This document shows, one piece after another, positions 41,820 through 55,302 of a stretch of 64,000 nucleotides of DNA. Both the position numbers and the translations under genes were made by a program. Under the pieces are notes generated by a model that saw only the letters and a program-made list of their open reading frames with translations, was not told where the DNA came from and made no database searches. The DNA comes from Fodinibius salsisoli (lineage in GTDB: Bacteria > Bacteroidota > Rhodothermia > Balneolales > Balneolaceae): assembly GCF_026229185.1 (NCBI RefSeq), contig NZ_JAGGJA010000003.1:186001-250000 (forward strand). The letters run 5' to 3'. Every line of letters begins with the position of its first letter. Position 1 is the stretch's first letter.

Positions 41820-42644
41820 ATCATCAGTGACAACAATTCAGAAAAACCACTTTGTTTTGTAATAATGCCAATAAGTGACCCAGATAAATATGAAGAAGGT
41901 CATTTTAATAGAGTATATGAACATTTAATAGAACCAGCATGTCTACAAGCGGGCTTTAGGGTTTTAAGAGCAGATAATATTAATTCAACCCATCATATTG
42001 TACTAGAGATACTCGATCAGATTGTTAATGCCGAAATGGTTTTGTGTGATTTGAGTAGCACAAATCCTAATGTGTTGTATGAATTAGGCATAAGACAAGC
42101 CTTTAATAAACCTGTAACCATTATAAAAGATGATGTAACTCCAAGAATATTTGACATCCAGGGGATTAGAGATATTGAATACGATTCAACTTTGAGAATA
42201 GATACTGTTGAGGATTTACGGAAAGAAATATCAGTCGCCTTAGAAAACAACTCAAAAAGTAATCAAAAAGGAATTAATTCATTGATTGAGTTATTAGGGA
42301 TAAGAGCAGCCAAAGTTTCATCTTCGGTGGAGATTTCAGAAGAGTCAAAATTAATCCTTAGTTCCATGGATGATATACATAAAAGGCTATCTAGTCTGGA
42401 AGAAAATTTTAGAATTACGAGGTTCAGGACTGCTCAGAAAAACGATATTATTGATCATCTTGATATGGAATCTGATATAACTTATGTAGTTGGTGATGAA
42501 ATAATTCATGATGACTTTGGTAAAGGAAAAATCTTAAACTTACAGCATAAAAAAAGAACCGGGCCTGCAGGTGTAGTTGAATTCGAAGATAAAGGTAGAA
42601 AAACTTTACTTCTCAGACATAATAAAATTAAACCAGCTACCTAA
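41820..42644 (+). CDS. cassette gene 1: deoxyribosyltransferase/TIR-like protein with C-terminal UvrD-type tudor-like domain
   Basis: The first ATG in frame is at 41865, but the frame is open from 41814 and the preceding codons read EKPLCFVI, directly joining MPISDPDKY. CFVIMP is the conserved first strand of nucleoside-2-deoxyribosyltransferase-like proteins, so I extend to a possible non-ATG start (ATC 41820 or 41823). The hallmark CDLSSTNPNVLYELGIRQA has its Glu at residue 73 from the ATG. A linker follows, and then a C-terminal GDEIIHDDFGKGKILN...LLLRHNKIKP domain like the small C-terminal domain of UvrD/PcrA. Likely a nucleotide-binding or NAD-type enzyme, perhaps in defence. The stop TAA lies inside attC1. 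Confidence 0.72.
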   Translation: MISDNNSEKPLCFVIMPISDPDKYEEGHFNRVYEHLIEPACLQAGFRVLRADNINSTHHIVLEILDQIVNAEMVLCDLSSTNPNVLYELGIRQAFNKPVTIIKDDVTPRIFDIQGIRDIEYDSTLRIDTVEDLRKEISVALENNSKSNQKGINSLIELLGIRAAKVSSSVEISEESKLILSSMDDIHKRLSSLEENFRITRFRTAQKNDIIDHLDMESDITYVVGDEIIHDDFGKGKILNLQHKKRTGPAGVVEFEDKGRKTLLLRHNKIKPAT

Positions 42645-42848
42645 CCTATATATGGCCTCCAATGTCAATAGGCTATAGCAATTCCGGGCAAGAAAAATAT
42701 CTCCTCGCCCCCGATGCGTCGGGGCCACTTTTTTGGCTTTTTAGCTCTTCGTTCATTATTTATCAATTCAACATTCATTAGCGTGTAGCTTATATACAGC
42801 CTATGTAGCCGTGCTACTTCGGCGTAGTAGTCCGCCATGTCGTTAGGT
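42639..42848 (+). repeat. attC1 recombination site
   Basis: It begins ACCTAAC (42639-42645, RYYYAAC, containing the stop of cassette gene 1) and ends GTTAGGT (42842-42848). The 210-bp interior includes a CCCCGATGCGTCGGGG hairpin (about 42709-42724) and a segment at 42794-42828 shared with attC3b. Unusually long for an attC. Confidence 0.78.
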
Positions 42849-42873
42849 TGCAAATCAAAATATTCAAGACAAA

Positions 42874-44157
42874 ATGCCAAATATTTTTACTATTCATTTA
42901 AGCTCAGGTTTCAGACCCGATTTGTTTTCGGAAGGCCCTCCTAGCTTAAAAGCTCTAAACAGTATTGAAGAAGAACTTAAAGACAATTTTCTGGATATCA
43001 GTTCATTCGAAAAAGCAGGAGTTCTGTTAGATACAGTTAAACCAACAGGCTCTGGGCAACTTCCTTTATTTAAGAAGTTTGGAAATTTGTTGACTCCTGA
43101 TTTAGTAATATTAGCTGTAACAGCCCTTAGAGCTGGAGGCAGAAGACATGCAGAAATAATAGAGAGAGGTGAAAGACCCTCAAGGAAGAAGCTTCAAAGA
43201 ATTCGTCATAAAGAAGAAACGAAACTTATTAAGTTGATCGAATTCATGGTTCCAAGCCTTATTCAGGGAATTAAAGAAAGATCTCCAAATACAAATATTG
43301 TCCTTTTTTCGACTAGATTTAACGATCAATTAGCTCGAATTTGCTCAAATAGAGATACCTTTTTTGCGGGGGGATTGTCAACTGATTTAATTCTCTCAAC
43401 ATGCAAAGGATTGCTAAGCAATAACTTAAAAGCCAATGAAACTGTAGTAAGGACTATTGAATTTCCTCCTGAATTCATACAAGCTGGGGTTTCCATATTA
43501 AGCTACTTTGGAAATTATATTCAAAATGAATATCAAAACGACAATCTCAAAGTTGCAATCCAACAAGAAAATGATACTATTTCTTTGATTATTGAAACTC
43601 CTGATGGGGAAATCAAAGAAAAAATTGAAAGAAGTTTTGCAGACTATCGTAAAGTCCTTCAAGGTGAAATGAAACCAGAGCAATTCGTAAGCGATAAACT
43701 CAAACAAGTTGAACTCAAAAATCAATTAAGAATTGCAGCTTTACAAGTTGAACAAAAAAATGAATTGCTTGAACTATCACGTCAACAAAGCCAAAGAGAT
43801 CGAAAACGCATTGATAAACTTGAATCTAGAGTTGATGATTTATCATCAATGGTTGAGAAATCTTTTGAGCAAACATTAGAAGAAAAGCAAAGTCTTGTTA
43901 ATACCCTTCAAAACCTCATTAACAAGTCTGATTCAACAATAAAAAACTCATTACAGATAATTAAAGATCAGTTAGAAAAGGGAGAAGATGAATTAGATAA
44001 TCAAAAATTCAAAGAAGCATTGGCAAATATTCGTGCCAAAGATCCTGATATGTTTACAACACTATTTAATTTAATGATTAAAGAACCGTTGACAGGTTCC
44101 TTTGGGAGTTTCATTTATAACGTCCTTATTAATTTAGCAGGCAGTTTGCCTAAATAG
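42874..44157 (+). CDS. cassette gene 2: 427-residue coiled-coil protein of unknown function
   Basis: Starts 26 bp after the attC1 core, as cassette genes usually do. I recognise no named family. Residues 1-230 look globular (PDLVILAVTALRAGGRR, PNTNIVLFSTRFNDQ). Residues about 225-275 carry ISLIIETPDGEIKEKIE and YRKVLQGEMKPEQFV. About 275-370 is a charged Q/E/K/L-rich coiled coil. The C-terminus (LFNLMIKEPLTGSFGSFIYNVLINLAGSL) is hydrophobic and could insert in or touch a membrane. Codon and base use are markedly A-rich compared with flanking chromosomal genes. A sensor-coiled coil-membrane effector layout is possible but inferred. Confidence 0.7.
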   Translation: MPNIFTIHLSSGFRPDLFSEGPPSLKALNSIEEELKDNFLDISSFEKAGVLLDTVKPTGSGQLPLFKKFGNLLTPDLVILAVTALRAGGRRHAEIIERGERPSRKKLQRIRHKEETKLIKLIEFMVPSLIQGIKERSPNTNIVLFSTRFNDQLARICSNRDTFFAGGLSTDLILSTCKGLLSNNLKANETVVRTIEFPPEFIQAGVSILSYFGNYIQNEYQNDNLKVAIQQENDTISLIIETPDGEIKEKIERSFADYRKVLQGEMKPEQFVSDKLKQVELKNQLRIAALQVEQKNELLELSRQQSQRDRKRIDKLESRVDDLSSMVEKSFEQTLEEKQSLVNTLQNLINKSDSTIKNSLQIIKDQLEKGEDELDNQKFKEALANIRAKDPDMFTTLFNLMIKEPLTGSFGSFIYNVLINLAGSLPK

Positions 44158-44163
44158 TTTGTA

Positions 44164-44290
44164 ACCTAACCCGCGATTAACTCGGACACACCTCGCGAAT
44201 TCTCTGCCACTCTTGGTTTTAAAGTTCATCTTTCGTTAGTTGCTAATTCAACATTTCATCGCGTGCAGCTTATGCGCAAGGTCGTTAGGT
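44164..44290 (+). repeat. attC2 recombination site
   Basis: Starts ACCTAAC (44164-44170), 7 bp after the gene 2 stop, and ends GTTAGGT (44284-44290); 127 bp, a standard attC size. The interior (CTAATTCAACATTTCATCGC, then GTGCAGCTTATGCGC) is clearly related to attC1 and attC3b. Confidence 0.82.
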
Positions 44291-44312
44291 TTCTCTAAAA
44301 ATAGTACTAAAT

Positions 44313-45221
44313 ATGGAATGGGATTTTACATCTAAAACAATAGAGAGTTGGTCTGATTTAGACAATCTCGATATTGATCAAGAGCTTTATCTTTTTCGGG
44401 GTCAGTCAAAGTACTGTTGGGATCTGGAAACTACAATAGAAAGAGCTTTTCATCGGAATTCAGTTGACAGAACATTTTATATCAATCACGAACATTGGAT
44501 GCTTTATGAATTTAAAAGAAGGGCTCATCTATACCTTAGTTATGAACCTGATCAAGATGACTTAATTAGTTGGTTCGCTCAAATGCAGCATTTTGGTGCA
44601 CCAACACGCTTACTAGATTTCACTCATTCTTTATATATCGCTTCTTACTTTGCTTTGATTAATGGAAATGATAATGCTGCAATCTGGGGAATAAGAGAGC
44701 CTTGGATCAGAAACTCTTCTATAAAGTATGCTTCGAAATTTCAGGACAAATTAAACTTTTCCGAATTAGATTTCGAAGATCTCTCTTCGTATGGATTAAG
44801 AGATGACCAAATTAGATATTCCAATAATTTTGGCAACTCTTATATAAAGCAGATTCATAAGGATCATAAGCCCGGTCAAGTAGATACAGATGGTTCTTGT
44901 TTGAATGGACTATTAATGGTAGAACCAAATAAACAGATTGAAAGACTTGCTAAACAACAAGGAGTTTTTCTTATGCCATTGGATATAAGAAAAACTTTTC
45001 AAGAAAATTTGGTTAACCAATTTTTAAATACCTATTCGGCAGAATCTAATAAACGAGTTAAAAATGTTGTCATCAAAATCCTTATTAAAAAAGAAGCCAG
45101 AGATGAAATTTTAGAAAAGCTAAAAGAAATAAATATAACTGCTGAGCTTCTATTTCCTGGTATAGAAGGATTTGCAAAATCTTTAGAACACTTGGTTATG
45201 GTAAGGAGCCGAGAAACCTAA
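44313..45221 (+). CDS. cassette gene 3: FRG-domain protein
   Basis: A 302-residue protein with an FRG domain near the N-terminus. The eponymous motif is LYLFRGQSKYCWDLETTIER (about 27-46), and the second conserved block is MQHFGAPTRLLDFTHSLYIASYFAL (about 90-115, in two parts). No signal or membrane segment. FRG proteins are of unknown biochemical function and are common on mobile islands. Starts 22 bp after the attC2 core, and its stop codon lies inside the ACCTAAC of the next attC, as for cassette 1. A-rich coding sequence. Confidence 0.85.
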   Translation: MEWDFTSKTIESWSDLDNLDIDQELYLFRGQSKYCWDLETTIERAFHRNSVDRTFYINHEHWMLYEFKRRAHLYLSYEPDQDDLISWFAQMQHFGAPTRLLDFTHSLYIASYFALINGNDNAAIWGIREPWIRNSSIKYASKFQDKLNFSELDFEDLSSYGLRDDQIRYSNNFGNSYIKQIHKDHKPGQVDTDGSCLNGLLMVEPNKQIERLAKQQGVFLMPLDIRKTFQENLVNQFLNTYSAESNKRVKNVVIKILIKKEARDEILEKLKEINITAELLFPGIEGFAKSLEHLVMVRSRET

Positions 45222-45543: not shown

Positions 45544-45939
45544 TCAATCAACGTAAATTTGTAGTGGCAGTTGAGTTGCTATCTGGTCGAAGTCTTTATC
45601 ATTGTGTAGCAGCTCCACTTCATGTTCGATGCACCAACTTCCAATTAGCATATCTACCGTTTTTCGAATTGTTACGCCTTTCGACCGAAGAAAACGAAAA
45701 TTAGATGCTGCTTTTATAGCCAGAGATTTTCCTCCGAGATGAACGCAGTCTAATGGATCAAGCGCTTGTTTGGCCAATCTAAACTCTTTGTCGCTATCGA
45801 AACCTTGTAGAATTTCGGTGAGGATAATATCTCCCAGGAGAACTGATTGCTCAGAAAGAACCTGGTCAAGGCTTTCGGTTTGCTGGTTTTCTATGCCATT
45901 GAAATAATCAACCCATACGCTGGTATCTACTAAAATCAC
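45544..45939 (-). CDS. vapC: cassette toxin VapC (PIN-domain ribonuclease)
   Basis: A 131-residue PIN-domain nuclease. The acidic residues of the Mg-binding site are all present: D5 (ILVDTSVWVDYF), E42 (LTEILQG), D96 (KTVDMLIG) and D114/D118 (HNDKDFDQI). VapC toxins cut RNA, often initiator tRNA, and are silenced by the paired VapB. Its start overlaps the vapB stop by 4 bp (ATGA). The pair reads against the cassette direction, so it must have its own promoter. Confidence 0.93.
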   Translation of the reverse strand: MILVDTSVWVDYFNGIENQQTESLDQVLSEQSVLLGDIILTEILQGFDSDKEFRLAKQALDPLDCVHLGGKSLAIKAASNFRFLRSKGVTIRKTVDMLIGSWCIEHEVELLHNDKDFDQIATQLPLQIYVD

Positions 45940-51064: not shown

Positions 51065-51737
51065 AGATAGATGTCATGATTTCTTTTAAGCCCCCAAACA
51101 TAACATTTTTTGCGAATCAATGGTGGGGTACGGTAAATTAAGTGTATTGATTAATTATAATAGCCGATTGTAAGGCTGGTAAGTTTTTATAGCAACCCAA
51201 AAATGGAACAACTAATGTTTATTTCCTTGATCCAAAAGGCTTAAAAAAGATCTAGGGCCCACTACGCCGAAGTAGCATAGCTACGTAGGCTGTACTGAAA
51301 ATTTCTTAGCGGCGCTCATGGCCTTCATGCTGTATAAATTCAATGGTCTTTCTTTGGTTTTAACCTCTAATTAAAGTTTAACCGGTATGAATTTATACGG
51401 TCCCACTTCGCCCCATTCGCTTTCCTCCGCCAACAAATTCAAGGCCAAGGGTCTTATCTAAAGACACAAGTGTTTTTCAGTCCCTCGGCCTATGAATACA
51501 GTGCGTTAGCTAAAGGAGAATCCACAGCCGGTGACATTTTTGATCCCTAAATAATAAAGACATAGCATTGCTTACCTATGGTGCAGCTGTTTCCTTCATC
51601 TGCTTTACAAAAAACATTAAGATCGACATGTACTGATCACCTGAAGAGATCAAAATTAAAATGCGATGAATTGCGATTACTTCGTCTATTTAGATATTTT
51701 AAGAAATAATTCTCAGCGAATTCAGACTGTATTGAAA
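51065..51737. other. intergenic region with attC-like and possible decayed coding sequence
   Basis: About 670 bp. It holds the 51261-51294 fragment that matches the complement of the attC1/attC3b interior. An open but startless stretch of about 60 codons ends at 51550 (contains RQQIQGQGSYLKTQVFF). I cannot identify the latter. Confidence 0.45.
51261..51294 (-). repeat. attC-interior-like fragment
   Basis: ACTACGCCGAAGTAGCA followed by CTACGTAGGCTGTA is the reverse complement, with few mismatches, of the segment at 42794-42828 in attC1 and 45478-45509 in attC3b. No complete core flanks it. Confidence 0.6.
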
Positions 51738-52469
51738 ATGAATATTTGTATTGCACAAACGCGACCGGAACCCGGAGATATCGCTCAAAACATCCGAAAT
51801 CATGAATCCATATTAGGTCTGGCAGCGGCTTACCAGGCTGACTATGTCTTTTTCCCGGAATTATCGCTGACCGGATATGAACCTGAACGTGCTGAGCAGC
51901 TGGCGACCACCAAAGACGATTCCCGACTGGATGTCTTCCAGTCTATTAGTAATACGCAGCAGCTGACTATTGGCTTAGGTTTGCCTATAGCTGATCCTGA
52001 AGGCGTATCAATTGGCATGGTTATTTTTCAGGCGGAAAAAGAGCGGCAAACTTATCGCAAGCAACATCTGCATGCGGATGAAGAACCTTATTTTATCAGT
52101 GACTCTGTGTCCAGTGATCAGCTGGAGGGTCTCCCTGGTATTGCCCTGGCCATTTGTTATGAAATATCAGTACCGGAACATGCTCAACAAGCTCATGCCT
52201 CCGGTGCAGAAACGTACGTCGCCAGTGTCGCTAAAGTTGCATCAGGCGTCGGAGAAGCCAACCAGGTGTTACCAAATACAGCCCAAGAGTACGGAATGAA
52301 TGTATTTATGGCGAACTGCATCGGTCCCTGCGATGGATCGACCGGAGCTGGCCAGTCGGCCGTTTGGAATGCTAAGGGACAAAAGATAGGCGGGCTCAAT
52401 GATGTAGATGAGGGAATCATCCTCATGAATACCGAGACGCAGGACTGTATCGTTAAAACAATACGATAA
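51738..52469 (+). CDS. nitrilase-superfamily carbon-nitrogen hydrolase
   Basis: A soluble 243-residue amidase from the ATG at 51738. The frame is open upstream to 51666, but MNICIAQTRP is the usual family start. The catalytic triad is E41 (FFPELSLTGYEP), K108 (YRKQHL) and C140 (ALAICYEISVPEH). NVFMANCIGPCDGSTGAGQS near the C-terminus is also typical. The reaction is hydrolysis of a C-N bond; the substrate is unknown. It lies about 80 bp upstream of the metallo-beta-lactamase gene in the same direction. Confidence 0.88.
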   Translation: MNICIAQTRPEPGDIAQNIRNHESILGLAAAYQADYVFFPELSLTGYEPERAEQLATTKDDSRLDVFQSISNTQQLTIGLGLPIADPEGVSIGMVIFQAEKERQTYRKQHLHADEEPYFISDSVSSDQLEGLPGIALAICYEISVPEHAQQAHASGAETYVASVAKVASGVGEANQVLPNTAQEYGMNVFMANCIGPCDGSTGAGQSAVWNAKGQKIGGLNDVDEGIILMNTETQDCIVKTIR

Positions 52470-52548
52470 CCCGAATTCACCTTGCCTCCTGCTAAATTTT
52501 AAACTACCATTCTATATCATCAAGAAAATCCTAATTCCGTTTCCCATA

Positions 52549-53259
52549 ATGACCTATTTGCTGTTACTTTATTTCTCTCTGTTTTCTTTCACGACCGCAC
52601 CTCCGGATCATCAAATTGAAGTTACACAGCTGGAAGAGAACGTGTACCTCTATGAATCCTTTGCCACTTACCAGGGGCAGCTTATTTCAGCAAACGGACT
52701 GGTACTGGTATCCGGCAACGAAGTGGCTCTCATTGATACACCCTGGGATGAGTCCCAAACCCGCCAACTACTAAACTGGATTGACGATAAGATCGATAAA
52801 CCCGTTGCCTTTGCAGTCATCACCCACGCCCACCAAGATCGTATTGGCGGCATAGATGTGCTTAAAACCAACCACATACCAACAGTTAGCGGAGAGCTTA
52901 CCGCCACCCAAGCTGTACAAAACGGCTATGCCCAACCGGATGCTTCCTTTCAATCGGATACCCTTTTAACATACGGGCAAGCATCCATCGACATGTTTTA
53001 TCCGGGTCCTGGCCACACTGTTGACAATACCGTGGTCTATCTCAATGATCGGGATATCCTGTATGGAGGATGTTTCATCAAAAGTGCGCAGGCCCAGTCG
53101 CTGGGTAACCTGGCAGATGCTTATGTACAAGACTGGTCCCAAAGTCTGGCTCGAGTTAAGGAACGATATCCAGAGAGAAAGCTGGTCATCCCCGGACATG
53201 GAAAATGGACGCCGGGTGCTATTGAAAATACGCTTAACCTTTTATTGAAAGCAGAATAA
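52549..53259 (+). CDS. subclass B1-type metallo-beta-lactamase
   Basis: A 236-residue exported protein with signal peptide (about 1-17) and a metallo-beta-lactamase fold. All zinc ligands of subclass B1 are present: H93, H95 and D97 in ITHAHQDRIGG, H156 in GPGHTVDNTVVYL, C175 in LYGGCFIKS, and H217 in VIPGHGKW. K178 and N187 (GNLADA) match the substrate-contacting Lys and Asn of clinical B1 enzymes. Length is within the B1 range. Likely hydrolyses beta-lactams, including carbapenems, in the periplasm, but activity is not shown by sequence alone. No mobile element adjoins it, so it is probably intrinsic. Confidence 0.88.
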   Translation: MTYLLLLYFSLFSFTTAPPDHQIEVTQLEENVYLYESFATYQGQLISANGLVLVSGNEVALIDTPWDESQTRQLLNWIDDKIDKPVAFAVITHAHQDRIGGIDVLKTNHIPTVSGELTATQAVQNGYAQPDASFQSDTLLTYGQASIDMFYPGPGHTVDNTVVYLNDRDILYGGCFIKSAQAQSLGNLADAYVQDWSQSLARVKERYPERKLVIPGHGKWTPGAIENTLNLLLKAE

Positions 53260-53334: not shown

Positions 53335-54246
53335 ATGAACCTCCGAAATGCTTTCATCGCTGGAGCGGCGAAATCGGGTACAACAACCCTTTATTACCTG
53401 TTGGAACAGCATCCTGAAGTTGCTGTTCCAGCCGTTAAAGAGCCCAATTATTTTAGCAATATCGACAATAATGAAGATCCGGTAAAAGCCGGGACTGGTC
53501 CGGGAGACGACAGTACTGTTTGGACCCGCAGCCAGCAAGAGTATCACAATCTATATCGCCCAAGTGATAAACATACCGTTAAGCTGGATGCTTCGGTGTC
53601 GTATCTGTATAGTACTACAGCCGCCGAGCAAATTGCCACCTACGATCCGGATAGCCGCATCATCATCGTACTTAGAAATCCCACTGAGCGGGCCTTTTCT
53701 CATTACAAACACTTACTGCGTGATGGGCGTGAAACGGAACCCTTTGAAGAGGCTTTGGCCCTAGAACAATCGCGCATTGACAAAGGATGGGAATTTTCCT
53801 GGCACCTCACCGCTATGGGGATGTACAGTCAGCAGATACAGCGATACCTCGATCACTTTGACGCCGAACAGCTTCATATCATCACGCTGAAGGACATCAA
53901 AAATGATCTTCCGGACGTTATCTCGGATATTACAGATTTTCTTGGATTGTCCCCTTTTGAATACGATCTTGAACGCCAGGAACGAAATGCCTCCGGGGTA
54001 GCCCGCAGCTGGATACTTTCCAGAATGGTGAACTGGGTGTTGGGCTACAAAGCTACCATAAACAAAATTATACCGCCCAAGCTCAGTCATAAAGCACTTC
54101 AGTTGTTCAGATCCTTTAACATCAAAAAAGGCAATTTGGAAATTTCAGAGGACACCAGGCGTGAACTGGCGACTACCTTCAAGGAGGATATCAATAAAAC
54201 AGAATCACTGATCGGTCGTAGCCTCAAAGGCTGGCTTAATGATTAA
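53335..54246 (+). CDS. PAPS-dependent sulfotransferase (heparan N-sulfotransferase-like)
   Basis: A 303-residue cytoplasmic sulfotransferase. The 5'-phosphosulfate loop is AGAAKSGTTTLY (K13, T16-T17), and the 3'-phosphate motif is RIIIVLRNPTERAFSHYKH (R114, S122). The acceptor is probably a polysaccharide, because the next gene, 9 bp downstream, encodes a glycosyltransferase. Together they may build or decorate a sulfated surface glycan. The C-terminal 60 residues include a basic region (ILSRMVNWVLGYKATINK). Confidence 0.9.
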   Translation: MNLRNAFIAGAAKSGTTTLYYLLEQHPEVAVPAVKEPNYFSNIDNNEDPVKAGTGPGDDSTVWTRSQQEYHNLYRPSDKHTVKLDASVSYLYSTTAAEQIATYDPDSRIIIVLRNPTERAFSHYKHLLRDGRETEPFEEALALEQSRIDKGWEFSWHLTAMGMYSQQIQRYLDHFDAEQLHIITLKDIKNDLPDVISDITDFLGLSPFEYDLERQERNASGVARSWILSRMVNWVLGYKATINKIIPPKLSHKALQLFRSFNIKKGNLEISEDTRRELATTFKEDINKTESLIGRSLKGWLND

Positions 54247-54255
54247 AATATCCCA

Positions 54256-55302
54256 ATGAGTACCATTTATATCAACGGACATTGCCTATTGCAACGCGTT
54301 ACCGGCGTGGAACGCTATGCGCGGGAAATCATCAAAGGCTTTGACCGGGGCGGATATCCATATCAAATTATTAAGCCGTCGGGATTCTGGGGATCCGGTA
54401 AGTTAGGCCGTAACCTGTGGCAGCAGATGGTCTTACCGCGGCAAAAGCAGCCTGATGATATTCTGTGGTCCCCGGCTAATAATGGACCAATTTATGCTCG
54501 AAATCATGTTATTACGCTCCACGATATGGCCGTTTTTCCGCATCCGGAGTGGTTCTCAACGGCCTACGCCACCTGGAAGCGCACGCTTGTTCCCCGCATA
54601 GCAAAAAGAGCCAAAGGCATCTTAACGGTATCAGAATTTTCCAAAAGCATCATCAGTAATCATTTGGATATCGATCCCCAAAAGATTAAAGTCGTATATA
54701 ATGGGGTCAACACCGATCGGTTTAGTCCTGCCACCGAGGCCGACATTAAAAGTTTGCGCGATAAATATGATCTACCCTCCAATTACCTGCTTACCCTCGG
54801 CTCGCTCGATCCCCGGAAGAACTTTAAGCGAACGGTGGAAGCCTGGAACCAGAGTCGAAAAGAAGAAGGGTTAAAAGATTATGTATTAGCTATTGCCGGA
54901 GCAACTAATGCCAATTTTAGCGATCTGGATGTGGATTTTGACAACGATTCCATCAAGAGGCTCGGGTATGTGGATGATGAGGATCTTTCGGCCCTCTATT
55001 CGGGAGCAGTCGGCTTTTTGCTTCCCTCCCTCTTCGAAGGGTTTGGGCTCCCGGTCGTTGAAGCCATGGCCTGCGGAACCCCGGTTATCACTTCCAACAC
55101 GACGGCCCTCGATGAAGTTGCGGGCGAAGCGGCCCTCAAAGTTGATCCGACAGATGTACAATCGATCAAAAAAGGTATTTTAGAACTCATCCATTCACCT
55201 GATTTACAGGATAAACTGACTGACCTTGGATTGAAACGCATTCCGAACTTTAGCTGGGATAAAGCCGCAGAAAATATTTATCATTACCTACAAGGAACAT
55301 AA
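54256..55302 (+). CDS. glycosyltransferase family 4
   Basis: A 348-residue GT-B transferase. The N-terminal part has the acceptor loop VTGVERYAREI. The C-terminal nucleotide-sugar domain has YLLTLGSLDPRKNF, the sugar-binding SLFEGFGLPVVEAMACGTPVI (E-x7-E motif) and AALKVDPTDVQSI. Cytoplasmic or membrane-peripheral. It is coupled to the sulfotransferase gene, so surface polysaccharide synthesis is the likely job. Donor and acceptor unknown. Confidence 0.93.
   Translation: MSTIYINGHCLLQRVTGVERYAREIIKGFDRGGYPYQIIKPSGFWGSGKLGRNLWQQMVLPRQKQPDDILWSPANNGPIYARNHVITLHDMAVFPHPEWFSTAYATWKRTLVPRIAKRAKGILTVSEFSKSIISNHLDIDPQKIKVVYNGVNTDRFSPATEADIKSLRDKYDLPSNYLLTLGSLDPRKNFKRTVEAWNQSRKEEGLKDYVLAIAGATNANFSDLDVDFDNDSIKRLGYVDDEDLSALYSGAVGFLLPSLFEGFGLPVVEAMACGTPVITSNTTALDEVAGEAALKVDPTDVQSIKKGILELIHSPDLQDKLTDLGLKRIPNFSWDKAAENIYHYLQGT

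Follow-up and report, generated by a model that had tools for sequence, protein, structure and literature searches.

The open reading frame at positions 52549-53259 of the forward strand, within the 64,000 nucleotides of the Fodinibius salsisoli genome analyzed here (the window), raises the question of whether the chromosome of this bacterium carries a genuine metallo-beta-lactamase (MBL) of subclass B1 and, if so, how this gene is related to the B1 genes of its own bacterial family and to the acquired enzymes found in the clinic.

An intact gene for a B1 enzyme

The reading frame starts with ATG, encodes 236 amino acids and is intact, without internal stops; no competing long open reading frame was found on the reverse strand at these positions. 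In a profile search, the product scored 264 bits (E 9.3e-79) against NF033088, the curated NCBI equivalog model for subclass B1, for which the cut-off is 200 bits. Pfam Lactamase_B also matches the protein, and the solved B1 enzymes matched include BcII (E 1.1e-54) and the MBL of Pontibacter korlensis (E 3.1e-57); among the 25 NCBIfam matches listed, no named-family cut-off was reached. In a tree of 85 proteins the query is placed inside the B1 clade (support 100/100, branch 2.36), which stands apart from the other MBL-fold proteins of the source genome and its relatives. Judged from its sequence and its structural model, the product is, almost certainly, a metallo-beta-lactamase of subclass B1. 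A previous sequence-only reading had described a complete B1 enzyme, and the intact frame, the model score and the tree all bear this out; a grouping with non-lactamase MBL-fold hydrolases, which would have refuted it, was checked, and the query was placed with the B1 enzymes and not among these hydrolases.

The residues of the active site were assigned using the standard B1 numbering, taken from an alignment with BcII and given here in brackets. The HxHxDR motif (52825-52842, forward strand, as are all the sites that follow) includes H93 (H116, 52825-52827), H95 (H118, 52831-52833), D97 (D120, 52837-52839) and, after it, R98 (R121). H156 (H196, 53014-53016) is part of the sequence GPGHTVDN, and H217 (H263, 53197-53199) of PGHGKW. 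The motif CFIK (53071-53082) provides C175 (C221, 53071-53073) and K178 (K224, 53080-53082), and N187 (N233, 53107-53109) is located in loop L10. The six B1 zinc ligands, i.e. H116, H118 and H196, and D120, C221 and H263, are all kept in invariant alignment columns, and together with K224 and N233 they agree with what had been read from the letters, namely six ligands plus the Lys and the Asn. The role of Lys224 towards the substrate carboxylate, and that of Asn233, have been described (PMC4212336). The AlphaFold2 model of the protein, for which the input alignment consisted of the rows without plasmid sequences, has a mean pLDDT of 93, and its comparison with solved B1 structures gave Z values of 34-37 and rmsd values of about 0.9-1.8 Å (0.9 Å over 214 residues for 6xfr, and 1.0-1.8 Å for BcII).

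In the proposed mechanism, Zn1 would be bound by H116, H118 and H196, and Zn2 by D120, C221 and H263; the bridging hydroxide would attack the beta-lactam carbonyl and the substrate would be held by Lys224 and Asn233 during the attack. The opening of penicillins, cephalosporins and carbapenems in this way would protect the cell from beta-lactams, and resistance would be the expected phenotype. Going by the well-established chemistry of this subclass, the product is very probably a true zinc-dependent enzyme that destroys penicillin-type antibiotics. A 2017 survey (PMC5637372) reported that 18 of the 21 predicted B1 genes that were tested in E. coli hydrolyzed imipenem, which gives a fair prior for hydrolysis by the enzyme studied here; the three genes that were inactive in E. 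coli were all from Bacteroidetes.

The translated N-terminus (MTYLLLLYFSLFSFTTAPPD, 52549-52608, forward strand; pLDDT 54-59 for residues 1-20) is hydrophobic and is a probable export signal. Given the sole standard start codon, this leader has no Lys or Arg ahead of its hydrophobic core, and two prolines follow the likely cleavage region; for these reasons export is uncertain, and the periplasmic location of the enzyme is put forward as a tentative prediction. The in-frame codons located just 5' of the ATG (52468-52548) carry the sequence IIKKILIPFPI, which has no standard start codon and resembles the missing basic start of a signal peptide. Considering this sequence and the leader free of basic residues, either the start annotation of the B1 gene or its export signal may be unusual.

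Position among the B1 enzymes

In the tree of 85 proteins the query belongs to the BcII-like branch, formed by proteins of Bacillota and a few Bacteroidota (support 86/88), and another tree, built from 110 rows, repeated this placement (support 86). The terminal branch of the query is long (0.83), so its exact sister group is soft (support 85/79). Group B1-4 of PMC5637372 includes BcII, IND, BlaB and EBR, and its hosts are Bacteroidetes and Firmicutes; the branch of the query appears to match part of this group, its anchor here being one BcII-like Metabacillus gene only. By our own reading, a further Bacteroidota clade placed beside this branch is of the IND/BlaB kind.

Among all the sequences fetched the closest to the query is L118, from the Bacteroidota genome G375, with 45-47% identity. 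Both proteins belong to the same subclade, yet L118 comes from a different bacterial family and its neighbor genes are unrelated. Since PMC5637372 sets the limit of a B1 family at 70% identity, the query is divergent, as had been suggested before. On balance we favor, with some reserve, the idea that it is the founding member of a B1 family not yet described, placed among the Bacteroidota enzymes of the BcII-like branch (less than 50% identity to the sequences found), and that it entered a single species of a largely B1-free group.

The comparison with named enzymes is in line with this position. BcII (Bacillus cereus metallo-beta-lactamase II) shares with the query the fold (Z 34-36), the zinc ligands, R121, K224 and N233; nonetheless, identity in the structural alignments is 41-44%, i.e. 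below 45%, and BcII comes from another phylum, the position of the query being on the side of the Bacteroidota within this branch. The best solved match is the B1 enzyme of P. korlensis (6xfr), yet identity is only 39%; Pontibacter is an environmental genus of Bacteroidota. The CcrA-like B1 enzymes of Bacteroidota are of the same subclass but form a separate branch, with 29-32% identity to the query. They include L070 and L071, which come from the bacterial family of the query; position 121 is Cys in L070, as in most CcrA-like enzymes, and Ala in L071, in contrast with the Arg of the query. In Anaerosolibacter carboniphilus, the B1 match at L005:866-1504 is interrupted, with 177 amino acids before a stop in the frame taken; either the gene is broken or the sequence may contain an error.

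Distribution and chromosomal setting

Within the genus, 1 of 12 genomes had a B1 gene. The corresponding counts are 3 of 92 for the family, 3 of 128 for the order and 12 of 244 for the class, and an evenly drawn sample of the phylum included 61 carriers among 394 genomes. The other two carriers of the family are those of L070 and L071, from the CcrA-like branch, and a clade formed by these two proteins and the query was rejected (AU p 0.0005), so the three B1 genes of the family must come from at least two branches. Given this sparse distribution and the absence of a common clade, the gene is accessory and does not represent a lineage intrinsic to the genus; the sequence-only reading had raised an intrinsic lineage as a possibility. 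The reading in which B1 was inherited vertically in the genus or family and lost in most of the sampled species would be compatible with the chromosomal location of the gene, on a contig of 440,974 bases of a 4.85-Mb draft genome with housekeeping genes in the window, and with its native-like composition and the lack of mobile genes in the scanned flanks; however, we regard it as improbable in view of the counts for genus and family and of the split of the three family members between two B1 branches.

The GC content of the gene (47.7%), its GC3 (0.47) and its codon use are within the range of the other genes of the window, and a recent foreign insertion was rejected in view of this ordinary composition. 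Between 40.2 and 62.5 kb, none of the scanned genes was for a transposase or integrase, in agreement with the earlier remark that no mobile element is nearby, and together with the composition this indicates that any acquisition was not recent. The gene may have been acquired horizontally or retained, the genome counts being compatible with loss elsewhere as well as with gain. We consider it highly probable that the locus encodes a di-zinc B1 enzyme of the BcII-like Bacteroidota/Bacillota branch, presumably periplasmic, and that the gene is a chromosomal accessory which the one carrier sampled in the genus has either gained or kept, for so long that its composition now looks native.

The B1 gene is preceded at 79 bases by a gene for a carbon-nitrogen hydrolase (51666-52469, forward strand; PF00795), and the two are possibly co-transcribed. 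A homologue of this hydrolase, about 51% identical, is present in 1 of 11 congeners with no B1 gene beside it, and none was found adjoining the other B1 genes fetched. Downstream lies a pair of genes assigned by Pfam to a sulfotransferase and a glycosyltransferase (53335-55302, forward strand), which occurs elsewhere in two congeners (L188 and L189; 65-68% identity), without B1. Beyond this pair comes an RND efflux operon of three genes. It is conserved in 8 of 11 congeners (the membrane-fusion protein is 54-66% identical), in which it is not preceded by the genes that lie upstream of it in the query genome. A conserved B1 neighborhood was rejected, because the efflux operon and the transferase pair occur in congeners without B1; the surroundings of the gene are a mosaic, and nothing in them points to a shared pathway. 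Among the scanned neighbors no BlaI- or AmpR-type regulator was recognized, no tRNAs were found in the window, and the promoter and terminator scans gave hits no more frequent than those in shuffled sequences.

It could be proposed that the product is a hydrolase in which the MBL fold and a B1-type site serve a physiological substrate other than a beta-lactam, given that its activity is a prediction and that the neighboring hydrolase, sulfotransferase and glycosyltransferase have no known role in resistance. This seems very unlikely to us, since the B1-type residues Cys221, Lys224 and Asn233 are kept, the B1 score extends over the whole length of the protein, and the non-B1 MBL-fold proteins of the source genome are far from it.

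Other features were observed in the window and the source genome. The block at 41865-45221 has a low GC content (33%; GC3 0.23-0.25, compared with 0.32-0.55 in other genes of the window) and includes a weak match to a TIR-like effector and an FRG-domain protein that matches the PADLOC candidate defence family PDC-S15; it is likely a defence island. A PIN-domain protein (45544-45939, reverse strand) is 94% identical over 81 amino acids to one that adjoins the efflux operon in the congeneric genome G010, the match in G010 being in two pieces. On contig C5 of the source genome (G000), L224:1420-2319 on the reverse strand encodes a homologue of class-A-like serine beta-lactamases with a lipoprotein-like start, which scored 114 bits on NF033103, below the cut-off of 200.

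Acquired enzymes and VIM-like genes of the class

NDM, VIM, IMP, SIM and AFM share with the query the subclass and the zinc ligands, with 38-40% identity, but they belong to other branches and are plasmid- or integron-borne. A single clade formed by the query and NDM, AFM, VIM, IMP and SIM was rejected (AU p 4e-10), hence the query stands at a distance from the reservoir of acquired enzymes; the kinship with this reservoir that had been suggested is also at odds with PMC5637372, which traced the origin of nearly all the acquired B1 families to Proteobacteria. A close kinship of the query with the ancestor of NDM, VIM and IMP is hardly credible: it has the HAHQD motif of NDM, and its GPGHT is common to IMP, SIM and NDM, but its overall identity to the acquired enzymes does not exceed that to the BcII-like ones, and both the rejected clade and the proteobacterial derivation speak against it.

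Five chromosomal VIM-like genes, which resemble VIM far more than any other enzyme compared, were observed in other families of the same class. Identity to VIM-1 is 70.6% for L142 (G502:C62:5501-6145, at the end of a 6-kb contig), 66.2% for L143 (G338:C75:6296-6934) and 56-58% for L144-L146 (genomes G505, G503 and G504), and VIM-1, L142 and L143 form a clade in the tree of 85 proteins (support 98/94). L143 scored 376 bits on the VIM model and 245 on the general B1 model; as the VIM cut-off is 500 bits, it is not a VIM enzyme by the model rule. Against solved structures, it scored 358 bits with VIM and 167 bits with 6xfr. To look for a gene-cassette (integron) source of the VIM-like gene in L221, attC-type core sites were paired and the sequence between them was folded; the few hits were in coding regions and lacked an attC-like structure. 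According to PMC5637372, close chromosomal counterparts were lacking in 2017 for all mobile B1 genes. Our literature searches found no paper on VIM-like chromosomal genes in this class, nor on metallo-beta-lactamases in the presumed family of the query. Judged against the B1 enzymes compared here, the VIM lineage may have its chromosomal home among genes such as L142-L146. If confirmed, these VIM-like genes would matter more than the query.

The accepted picture of the origin of the clinical enzymes is unchanged by the gene described here. Chromosomal B1 genes of this type have long been known in Bacteroidota, where many environmental relatives of Bacteroides carry them, and the query is an ordinary, new and divergent example that adds another deep branch to their diversity in this phylum; within its bacterial family, the B1 genes derive from at least two different branches.
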